Shown one piece after another: positions 18,620-21,455 of a stretch of 64,000 nt of DNA. Under the pieces are notes generated by a model. It was not told the DNA's origin, ran no database searches, and saw only the letters and a list, made by a program, of their open reading frames with translations. The position numbers were made by a program, and so were the translations under genes. Within the stretch, counting starts at the first letter, position 1. Each line of letters begins with the position of its first letter. Source of the stretch: Anaerophilus nitritigenes (GTDB lineage Bacteria > Bacillota > Clostridia > Peptostreptococcales > Thermotaleaceae); contig NZ_RYYS01000032.1 in NCBI RefSeq assembly GCF_004138215.1, forward strand, positions 62,001 through 126,000, in the 5' to 3' direction.

Positions 18620-19654
18620 ATGAATAAAAAAATTGTTATAGGGATTTTATATATTCTTACTACTTTAATTTTTTTATCTGGATGTAGTAAAGAATTAAAA
18701 CCTGTTGAAGAATCTAGTTATATGCTAGGAACTTATTTGACGATTAAACTTTGGACAGATCATGAAGAAGAAGGCAAGGAGATCATAAAAAAATCTTTTG
18801 ATAGAATCCAAGAAATAGAAAAAAAAATGAGTGTAAATCTAGAAGATAGTGAAATTAATAAAATCAATCATGCATCAGGAGAAGATTTTATAAAGGTAAG
18901 TAAAGATACAAGTGAAGTTTTAAAAAAGTCACTAAGTTATGCAAAAATATCAAGGGGAGCATTTGATCCAACCATTGGTAAATTAGTACAATTATGGGGA
19001 ATTGGAACCGACAGTGAAAGAGTTCCTTCTCGGGAAGAAATAGAAAATGCATTAAAATATGTGAATTTTCATAGGATTAAGGAAAAGAATGATGATAGTT
19101 TTCAATTGCAAAACAAAGGAATGCGTCTTGATCTAGGAGGGATTGCAAAAGGATATGCCGCGGATGAAGTATATAAAATATTAAAAGAAAAAAAAATAGA
19201 ACATGCAATGATTAATTTAGGTGGAAATATATATGCAGTAGGGAATAAACTAGACGGATCTTCTTGGAAGATTGGAATACAAGATCCACTACAAAAAACA
19301 GGTACACATATGGGATATTTAGAAGTATCTAATCAATCTGTTGTAACGTCAGGAAATTATGAAAGATTTTTTGTTCAAAATAATGAAAGATATCATCATA
19401 TCATAGATCCACATAAAGGATATCCAGCAAAAAATGGAGTCATTAGCGCTACTATTGTTACAGACAAATCTATGGATGCAGATGCATTATCTACAGCCAC
19501 TTATATATTAGGGGTAGATGAAGGAATGAAGCTTATAGAAAGCCTAGAGAATGTAGAATGTATACTCGTTACGCAAAGTCAAGAGGTATATGTATCATCT
19601 GGATTGAAAAAAAAATTCAATATTATCAATGAAAAATTTCACTTAAAGGACTAA
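18620..19654 (+). CDS. apbE: FAD:protein FMN transferase (ApbE), lipoprotein
   Basis: ApbE (344 aa) transfers FMN from FAD to a Thr of target proteins such as RnfG and RnfD. A lipoprotein signal peptide ends in LSGC (Cys about residue 21), so it acts outside the membrane. Motifs LGTYLTIKLW, AFDPTIGKLVQLWGIG, LDLGGIAKGYAADE, INLGGNIYAVG, HHIIDPHKGYPA and DALSTATYILG are all intact. ATG 18620 follows TGGAGTGAAG; an overlapping longer frame running back into mgsA is not the start. Its obvious substrates are encoded at 3.5-5.0 kb. A terminator follows. Confidence 0.95.
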   Translation: MNKKIVIGILYILTTLIFLSGCSKELKPVEESSYMLGTYLTIKLWTDHEEEGKEIIKKSFDRIQEIEKKMSVNLEDSEINKINHASGEDFIKVSKDTSEVLKKSLSYAKISRGAFDPTIGKLVQLWGIGTDSERVPSREEIENALKYVNFHRIKEKNDDSFQLQNKGMRLDLGGIAKGYAADEVYKILKEKKIEHAMINLGGNIYAVGNKLDGSSWKIGIQDPLQKTGTHMGYLEVSNQSVVTSGNYERFFVQNNERYHHIIDPHKGYPAKNGVISATIVTDKSMDADALSTATYILGVDEGMKLIESLENVECILVTQSQEVYVSSGLKKKFNIINEKFHLKD

Positions 19655-19680
19655 ACCAAAAGTTTTAGTCTTTTTATTTT
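19649..19680 (+). terminator. Intrinsic terminator of apbE
   Basis: GACTAAA and TTTAGTC pair around an eight-base loop and run into TTTTTATTTTT, overlapping the apbE stop codon. Confidence 0.75.
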
Positions 19681-19684
19681 TGTA

Positions 19685-19711
19685 ATATTTCCTCTCCTTT
19701 TAAAATACAAT
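19685..19711 (+). promoter_or_regulatory. Candidate sigma-E (mother-cell) promoter of spoIVFA-spoIVFB
   Basis: ATATT (19685-19689), 14 bases, then AATACAAT (19704-19711). The Bacillus sigma-E consensus is ATATT-N14/15-CATACAMT, so the -10 differs at one base only and the spacing is ideal. In Bacillus spoIVF is transcribed by sigma-E. No good sigma-A promoter overlaps it. Confidence 0.62.
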
Positions 19712-19741
19712 GATAGTATCATCAACATAAGGAGGGAAATT

Positions 19742-20470
19742 ATGAATCCATTATATGAGCCTAGGAATTTCAATAGGCAAAAGAATATGCCTTATATGAA
19801 AAAAAAAGATCAACCAAAAAATTTTTATAGTAGAATTTTAAAAAAAATAATATTATCTATTATTATTGTGTTACTTATTATATGTATTAAGAATATGAAT
19901 ACACCTCTTACAAACAAGGTAACAGATATAATTAAAACTTCTCTTAATCATGAAATAAATATAAAAAATGCGGCAAAAAAAGTAGTAATTTATACAAAAA
20001 AAATACCTAAAGTACCAGATAAAGTAGTAAGTGTTTTTGATAATTTGTCCAAAAGTGAAAATTCAAAATATAATTTTGTAGTTCCTGTAAAGGGCAATAT
20101 TATTTCTAATTATGGAGAAAATATAGAACCTGTTTTGAATACGAAAACATTTCAAAGAGGAGTGGATGTAGCGGTTAAAGAGAAAGAGGATATTGTATGT
20201 ATAGGAGATGGAGAGGTTGTAGAAGTTAAAGAAGGAGAGAGTTTGGGTAAATATATAAAAATAAAACATAATACGAATATATTTTCTTTATATGGAAATT
20301 GTTCAGAGGTTTATGCAAAAAAAGGTGAAAAAATACAAAAGGGACAGATCATTGGAATCATTCATAAACCAAAAGAAGTAGAGAATACTTATTTGCATTT
20401 TGAACTTTGGGTGGATGGAAAAGTAGTAGATCCAACTACGTATATCCCGTTTGACAAAAAGATGCTCTAA
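19742..20470 (+). CDS. spoIVFA: SpoIVFA-like membrane protein with degenerate M23/LytM domain
   Basis: A 242-aa protein with a basic N-terminus, one membrane helix (about residues 36-56) and a C-terminal M23 (LytM) domain from about residue 112. In active M23 peptidases zinc is held by HxxxD and HxH; here the first motif reads QRGVD (His to Gln) and the second YLH (first His to Tyr), so catalysis is unlikely. That fits SpoIVFA, which holds and inhibits the SpoIVFB protease, encoded 15 bases downstream. In Bacillus minD is followed by spoIVFA-spoIVFB, a similar order. SpoIIQ-type is an alternative, but the partner gene favours SpoIVFA. Confidence 0.8.
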   Translation: MNPLYEPRNFNRQKNMPYMKKKDQPKNFYSRILKKIILSIIIVLLIICIKNMNTPLTNKVTDIIKTSLNHEINIKNAAKKVVIYTKKIPKVPDKVVSVFDNLSKSENSKYNFVVPVKGNIISNYGENIEPVLNTKTFQRGVDVAVKEKEDIVCIGDGEVVEVKEGESLGKYIKIKHNTNIFSLYGNCSEVYAKKGEKIQKGQIIGIIHKPKEVENTYLHFELWVDGKVVDPTTYIPFDKKML

Positions 20471-20485
20471 TAAGGTGGTATATGA

Positions 20486-21364
20486 ATGAGGATTATAAGA
20501 ATATTCGGAGTAGATATTAAGATCAATCCTTTATTATCTATTGTTTTTTTTGTATTTTTTTTATTGGGATACATTGAAAACTTAATTATATCTTTATTTA
20601 TTGTTTTATTGCATGAAAGTGCCCATATGATGGTTGCAAAAAAATTTGGATATGAATTAAGTAGCATTGAACTTTTTCCTTTTGGAGGAGTGGCAAAAGT
20701 AGAAGGAGAGGTGGCTATACACCCAGCCCATGAAATATTTATTGCATCAGCAGGCCCTTTTTTAAATTTATTAATGGCTTTACTAGGGTATGAATTGTAT
20801 GATATAGGAAAGTATACTCATGAATTATTTGTTTTTTTTATTTTATCGAACTTTATAATTGGTACATTTAATTTGATTCCTATATTACCATTAGATGGAG
20901 GACGCATCGTAAGAGCTTATTGTGCTTATTTTATAGGAATTAAAAAAGCTACTAAATTAGTAGCACTTTTATCTAAGAGTATAAGTGTTATATTTTTTAT
21001 TATAGGGATTTTATTATATAGATATAATCCATTTAATATTTATATATCTTGTTTGGCTGTCTTTTTATATATTGCTGCATGTAAAGAATATAAGATGGCA
21101 GCTTTTATTTTTATGAAAGAAATTAGTTTGAAAAAACAACACCTTCTCCAAAGAGGTATAGTACATACAAAACATTTGACGGCTTTAAAAAATACTCCTA
21201 TTCAAGAAGTAATGAATGAGTTTATTCCAAGAAAGTATTATATGGTTATTGTTATGGATGAAAAATGCAATATGATAGGGATGCTAACAGAGAATGATTT
21301 ATTTGAAGGTATGATAAAATATGGTGTAAATACCCCACTAGAAAAGTTGTTAATACATAAGTAA
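20486..21364 (+). CDS. spoIVFB: SpoIVFB-like site-2 (M50) intramembrane protease
   Basis: A 292-aa polytopic membrane protein. The zinc motif HESAH begins at residue 43 and the third ligand lies in PLDGGR (Asp 137), as in family M50 S2P proteases. The C-terminal 85 residues resemble a single CBS repeat (PIQEVMNEFIP to LTENDLFEGM), as in SpoIVFB, where it senses ATP. In Bacillus this enzyme cleaves pro-sigma-K in the outer forespore membrane. AAGGTGG precedes ATG 20486. It forms a pair with the SpoIVFA-like gene. Confidence 0.9.
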   Translation: MRIIRIFGVDIKINPLLSIVFFVFFLLGYIENLIISLFIVLLHESAHMMVAKKFGYELSSIELFPFGGVAKVEGEVAIHPAHEIFIASAGPFLNLLMALLGYELYDIGKYTHELFVFFILSNFIIGTFNLIPILPLDGGRIVRAYCAYFIGIKKATKLVALLSKSISVIFFIIGILLYRYNPFNIYISCLAVFLYIAACKEYKMAAFIFMKEISLKKQHLLQRGIVHTKHLTALKNTPIQEVMNEFIPRKYYMVIVMDEKCNMIGMLTENDLFEGMIKYGVNTPLEKLLIHK

Positions 21365-21455
21365 AATGATAAAATAGTAATACAAAAACATTGAGTATCA
21401 AAGAATACAAAAGTAGAGATAATACAAAAGAGAAGATATTTTTAGGAGGAAAAAG

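Follow-up and report, generated by a model that had tools for sequence, protein, structure and literature searches.

A predicted sigma-E promoter upstream of the spoIVFA-spoIVFB pair and its conservation in a clostridial family

In a 64,000-nucleotide stretch of the Anaerophilus nitritigenes genome (the window: contig C40, positions 62001-126000, of the genome G000, assembled as 3.06 Mb in 112 contigs) a gene pair resembling spoIVFA and spoIVFB, the latter encoding an intramembrane protease, lies within a vegetative gene cluster which reads in the same direction. The question raised by this locus is whether the pair has a promoter of its own and, if so, which sigma factor reads it. The site upstream of the pair is very probably a sigma-E promoter from which the mother cell would transcribe spoIVFA-spoIVFB ahead of the completion of engulfment; we favour this reading because of the sequence of the site, its conservation, the recurrence of a like arrangement at four further sigma-E genes and the presence of the partner genes.

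Anatomy of the promoter site

All coordinates refer to the window and all features lie on the plus strand. The -35 element GTAATATT (19682-19689), read in the sequence and conserved as GTAATANN in 20 of the 22 orthologous loci described below, is followed by a spacer of 14 bases (19690-19703) and by the -10 element AATACAAT (19704-19711), which together with the extension GATA reaches position 19715. At equal spacing, AATATATTATA or a close variant is found in most relatives. The initial annotation described the site as ATATT, N14 and AATACAAT, with letters and coordinates that are correct, the ATATT (19685-19689) being part of GTAATATT. With an ATA in the -35, a -10 close to CATACANT, which we take to be the sigma-E consensus, and a spacing of about 14 bases, GTAATATT-N14-AATACAAT has the features of a sigma-E promoter. 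Judged by the usual distance from the -10, transcription is predicted to start at 19718-19719. A ribosome-binding site, AAGGAGGG, is present at 19729-19736, and 30 bases separate the end of AATACAAT from the start codon (19742) of the first gene of the pair.

The single mismatch previously pointed out in the -10, an A for a C, is real if AATACAAT is set against the consensus, but it is not a defect: since all 20 matching spoIVF promoters and all 13 spoIIIAA sites carry A at this position, a -10 beginning with A is a normal form in the family of G000.

Conservation upstream of orthologous gene pairs

SpoIVFB was detected in 27 of 59 genomes at E <= 0.001, and 24 of these matches were strong (L021-L044; the weak matches L045-L047 were not used). 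Two of the strong loci, L038 and L044, have no called SpoIVFA open reading frame (ORF), which leaves 22 loci for the upstream counts, while for the downstream count 23 loci could be used, L044 being without a usable ORF. The pattern GTAATANN-N13-15-MATA is present upstream of the pair in 20 of the 22 loci, that is in 14/15 within the family and in 6/7 in the wider order, as compared to 38 of 4400 shuffled regions (0.9%). Behind spoIVFB, taken as control region, the pattern occurs in one of 23 loci. In 16 of the 20 matching loci the promoter is located 57-62 bases before the ORF start; the distance is 65 bases in G049, 75 in G009 and about 150 in both G008 and G056. In these last two loci (L028 of G008 and L037 of G056) the promoter thus stands approximately 90 bases farther upstream than usual, as if an insertion had lengthened the interval up to the gene. 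In G006 the motif is preceded by sequence that ends like a methylglyoxal synthase gene, so that the upstream neighbour is a different one while the motif stays put. We consider this conservation the decisive evidence that the putative promoter is more than a chance occurrence.

The conserved -35 also bears on the choice of the sigma factor. The -10 is compatible with either factor and would also fit recognition by sigma-K, alone or alongside sigma-E; yet the product is needed ahead of sigma-K activity, as is generally known from B. subtilis, and the conserved -35 at spoIVF is GTAATA, which carries the ATA of sigma-E and not the AC of sigma-K. We therefore regard sigma-K control, shared or exclusive, as very unlikely. 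The distinction follows C. difficile, where sigma-E and sigma-K promoters are described, in PMC3789822, as having the -10 in common and differing at the -35 by ATA versus AC.

The same architecture at other sigma-E genes

Four genes counted as sigma-E targets on the basis of other species, spoIVA, spoIIID, spoIIIAA and spoIID, were each searched for in the 15 genomes of the family. Among the genomes with a usable gene, an 8-base -35, N14 and a MATA -10 were found in common register upstream of spoIVA in 15/15, spoIIID in 15/15, spoIIIAA in 13/14 and spoIID in 11/14. The initial annotation had named spoIVA and spoIIID as places where the motif should recur in this genome, and it does so as GTAATAAT-N14-CATATATA at spoIVA and GTTCTATC-N14-CATATTAT at spoIIID; spoIIIAA and spoIID of G000 also carry a site in the common register. 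The spoIID genes of G010 and G003 have GTCATATT-N14-CATACAAT.

Each gene has its own preferred variant of the elements. The -35 begins with GTCATA in 7 of the 15 spoIVA sites and otherwise with GGCATA, GGAATA or GTAATA (one of them a base out of register), with ATCATA in 9 of the 13 spoIIIAA sites, and is GTTCTA in all 15 spoIIID sites; at spoIID it is GTTCTA in 5/11 and GTCATA in 3/11. The -10 begins with CATA at spoIVA, spoIIID and spoIID and with AATA at spoIIIAA and spoIVF. Taken together, the promoters of spoIVF, spoIVA, spoIIID, spoIIIAA and spoIID yield a sigma-E consensus that can be used in these genomes.

Two further observations were made during these searches. At L178 (G000 C34:87169-87196), GTAATAAT-N14-CATATATAATA is located 43 bases before a 154 amino acid ORF of unknown function, possibly a further sigma-E gene. 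In G006 (L077 and L078, C1:1291918-1293394) spoIVA appears as two overlapping matches with internal stops, which may reflect a broken gene or a sequencing error.

Matrix scores, pattern counts and chance

A position matrix was built from 54 sites upstream of spoIVA, spoIIID, spoIIIAA and spoIID, none of them from spoIVF. It omits the spoIID of G009, G013 and G015 (3/14; no site found by the pattern) and the spoIIIAA of G002 (1/14; outside the search window, yet with a similar site visible), and it retains the spoIVA of G013 despite a -35 one base out of register. With this four-gene matrix the site upstream of spoIVFA ranks 5th of 127,920 placements in the window, and among the 60 best placements it is the only one outside ORFs and at most 150 bases upstream of an ORF of at least 100 amino acids.

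Several points weigh against the promoter being more than a chance resemblance, or against its assignment to sigma-E. An earlier matrix, built on three genes and with slightly different columns, placed the site 17th of 127,916; the shift to 5th came with the addition of spoIID and the loss of one column, so the choice matters and both ranks are given. The pattern was chosen after the spoIVF regions had been viewed, and the relatives share descent and are not independent; the motif was not found in the upstream region of G039, one of the 22 loci, and G013 has the variant GGAATAAA. Regular expressions and inspection by eye supplied the comparison sites; at spoIVA and spoIIID the strings CATATATATATA and GTTCTA..CATA served to locate them, so that the uniformity of these two sets is partly by construction; the presence of the search string close upstream of both genes in each genome is not. 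By pattern search the site was not found in 3/14 spoIID and 1/14 spoIIIAA regions. In the whole genome, 14 of the 20 matches to the strict pattern lie inside ORFs of at least 60 amino acids, and the wider pattern GTMATAWT-N14-MATAYW has 8 matches as compared to 5 for its control; the bare pattern is weak evidence, hardly above chance in a genome of 30% GC. SpoIIID-like sites are not in excess upstream of the pair, at 1/22 regions versus 227/2200 shuffles, and the lack of an excess may be a real difference from B. subtilis or due to a poor consensus. Sigma-E use, timing and start site are predicted, and the protein mechanism is inferred from B. subtilis.

A chance match of AT-rich sequence to the consensus would explain why the genome matches are mostly within ORFs and why the wider pattern barely exceeds its control. 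The strict pattern, ATATT-N13-15-MATACAAT, has 20 matches in the 3.06 Mb versus 4 for the reversed control, and the 8 matches to the wider one, 4 of them within ORFs, include both spoIVA and the window site. The three-gene matrix is likewise of limited discrimination: about 11 equally good sites are expected per 128 kb of simulated sequence, sites of G000 scored with the respective gene held out are low (spoIVA 4.33, spoIIIAA 4.70, spoIIID -4.56), and in many single relatives the score alone is not significant, being matched by as many as 57 of 100 shuffles. Against chance stand the 20 of 22 orthologous loci, set against 0.9% of the shuffles, and the four-gene matrix rank of 5 among 127,920, which make such a coincidence extremely improbable.

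Boundaries of the transcription unit

In the window, of 29.8% GC content, the gene order is minD, minE, rodA, mgsA, an apbE-type gene, the M23-domain gene, the M50-protease gene, TIGR03960, TIGR03936 and RNase E/G. The initial annotation regarded the pair as a separate unit in this vegetative cluster, preceded by a terminator. A terminator-like hairpin, AAAGGACTAAA/TTTAGTCTTTT, identified by folding, does exist after the apbE-type gene (19645-19674), with an 11-bp stem, an 8-base loop and a T-rich stretch behind it, but its fold is only moderately better than that of shuffled sequence (-9 kcal/mol, z -1.52; 16 of 200 shuffles fold as well) and it is absent from the list of the terminator scan of the window. 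When the 60-base stretch that closes with the -35 box was folded in the 22 loci, 8 reached -12 kcal/mol or lower (G001, G006, G007, G011, G013, G015, G034 and G039); the other 14, including G000 at -9.4 kcal/mol, fold weakly or not at all, two of these stretches being only 15-16 bases long. A terminator at that exact place upstream of the spoIVF promoter is not universal.

On the far side a sigma-A-type promoter, TTGTTA-N17-TAAAAT with a TG before the -10, covers the last codons and the stop of spoIVFB (21347-21375). It was found as a scan match and is conserved: it is present in 15/15 family genomes with the gene and in 0/8 outside the family, as compared to 4 of 2300 shuffles. From this promoter vegetative transcription probably resumes towards the TIGR03960 gene. 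The view of the pair as a separate unit is supported by a conserved far boundary. The terminator scan of the window lists no terminator behind spoIVFB, so that transcription from the sigma-E promoter may continue past the pair into the vegetative cluster.

The moderate hairpin fold, weak or unseen in those 14 loci within the stretch folded, together with a cluster that runs in the direction of the pair, would be compatible with transcription of the pair mainly by read-through of the hairpin from upstream vegetative promoters, the motif being incidental. Such an origin is hard to reconcile with a motif that holds its position when the upstream neighbour changes, as in G006, and with the separate sigma-A-type promoter conserved behind the pair. 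Moreover, a simple sigma-70 scan gave no sigma-A-like match overlapping the motif, in agreement with what had been noted before. Read-through as the main source of the transcript is accordingly rated as very improbable, and a sigma-E promoter as the origin of the spoIVFA-spoIVFB transcript remains the preferred reading.

The proteins and their predicted role

The first gene of the pair (19742-20470) encodes a 242 amino acid protein with an N-terminal hydrophobic segment, judged to be a membrane segment from its sequence, and an M23 peptidase domain (PF01551, 77.7 bits). In the alignment the domain is, as expected for SpoIVFA, without the usual zinc ligands: the positions of HxxxD and HxH, which we take to be the M23 zinc-ligand motifs, read RGVDV and YLH. 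No SpoIVFA-named model of NCBIfam matched this protein, only other M23 models, all under cut-off, and a search of the genome contigs with it brought up 15 M23 loci, all of them distant. The name SpoIVFA is here based on position and anatomy.

The second gene (20486-21364) encodes SpoIVFB, a 292 amino acid M50 site-2 protease (PF02163, 70.8 bits) with a possible C-terminal CBS-like domain. The best solved relative is PDB 8vjl_A, 'Stage IV sporulation protein FB' (residues 10-290, E 5e-21), with the archaeal protease 3b4r scoring almost equally well (E 5.5e-21). H43, E44 and H47 of the HExxH motif and PLDGG at 135-139, the second metal-ligand motif, are invariant in an alignment of 8 sequences. 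The C-terminal CBS match, with 18.2 bits, is under the cut-off of 24, and the 8vjl SpoIVFB chain aligns through that part. The sigma-E type, the spacing and the spoIVFA-spoIVFB identity given in the initial annotation all agree with the sequence and its conservation.

The partner genes are present in G000. These are the sigma-E gene (TIGR02835, 398 bits; cut-off 348.6), those for SpoIIID, SpoIVB and BofA, and sigK, whose product has a pro-sequence, MWTTMATLSLILAKPIFTFV, of 20 residues before SYVSSN, the boundary being placed as in B. subtilis. This sigma-K aligns from residue 7 on to 8vjl_B, the sigma-K chain solved with SpoIVFB (E 6.2e-39).

By analogy with B. subtilis, sigma-E RNA polymerase would produce SpoIVFA and SpoIVFB in the mother cell before engulfment ends, and both proteins would reach the outer forespore membrane. 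There the SpoIVFA-like pseudo-peptidase, together with BofA, may hold SpoIVFB and keep it off until a signal from the forespore protease SpoIVB frees it, upon which the intramembrane protease SpoIVFB would cut the pro-sequence off pro-sigma-K. The spoIVF promoter would act behind the hairpin of the vegetative apbE-type gene, and the sigma-A-type promoter at the end of spoIVFB would restart the vegetative cluster.

sigK split by skin-like elements

The presumed target of this protease is encoded in the family by a gene which is itself usually interrupted. At site A, after AARCIEN (codon about 114), sigK is interrupted in G000, G001, G007, G008, G011 and G014; in G003 and G006 the break is at site B, which follows DKEGNE (codon about 144). 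G013 and G015 have interruptions at both sites, as probably does G010, where a contig break separates the first two pieces; in these three genomes (L157 in G013, L158 in G015, L159 and L160 in G010) sigK appears in three pieces, the middle one of approximately 30 codons. The gene is intact in G005. In G009 (L198, C24:10100-17620) it is open to codon 215, where it meets a stop; a ParA-like ORF comes next, and 30 codons that match the sigK 3' end weakly (codons 212-241, E 0.002) are found at C32:46387-46470, on a contig which also holds spoIIIAA: this is probably a third insertion site near the 3' end, although not proven. No sigK was found over weaker sigma matches in G002, which is 68% complete, and G012.

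Behind each of the two sigK sites of G013 and G015 there is a separate, unrelated large serine recombinase. In a comparison of 14 recombinases, which left out the second recombinase of G000 missed by the filter, the site A group was 33-77% identical and the site B group 48-72%, with 20-25% identity between the groups; Resolvase and Recombinase domains were present in the five proteins tested. The sigK element of G000 (L155, C51:85900-93000) is approximately 5 kb long, and two large serine recombinase genes, related to each other, stand on it in tandem; G001 (L156) likewise has such a tandem, with 44% identity between the two. In G011, at a distance of about 22 kb from the split sigK, there is a second copy of its 3' part (L162, C1:5762000-5763000; codons 141-242).

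B. subtilis and C. difficile are known to carry skin elements at different places of sigK (PMC5025042 and PMC6957869), and a sigK prophage is known in C. tetani (PMC5553647). Our literature search found no report of two skin-like elements in one sigK, which is not proof of absence. We lean slightly towards the view that sigma-K is under stacked gates in this family: the sigma-E-timed SpoIVFA-SpoIVFB pair, pro-sequence cleavage, and the excision of one or, in G013, G015 and probably G010, two independent skin-like elements approximately 30 codons apart, each having a large serine recombinase unrelated to that of the other. If this is true, sporulating cells of some species would have to excise two elements separately to restore sigK.

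Comparison with known systems

In B. subtilis spoIVFA and spoIVFB are under sigma-E control and repressed by SpoIIID (PMC517825). Sigma-E control of the pair being already known there, the promoter in the family of G000 represents another instance and is largely ordinary. G000 shares with the B. subtilis spoIVF operon the two-gene order, the sigma-E-type promoter, a SpoIVFB matching 8vjl and the presence of pro-sigma-K, BofA, SpoIVB and SpoIIID. Unlike in B. subtilis, the -35 reads GTAATA, every one of the 20 matching loci has A as the first base of the -10, and the pair is flanked by apbE and a radical-SAM gene.

With C. difficile, G000 has in common a sigma-E regulon with ATA-type -35 boxes and a sigK broken by a skin element. 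PMC3789822 describes C. difficile as being without SpoIVFA, SpoIVFB, BofA and the sigma-K pro-sequence; all four, in contrast, are present in G000. A sigma-K protease gate like that of B. subtilis would thus persist, together with its sigma-E promoter, in clostridia whose sigK is in most cases interrupted by skin-like DNA as well, which makes this family well suited for asking how the protease gate and the skin-like gate divide their work.
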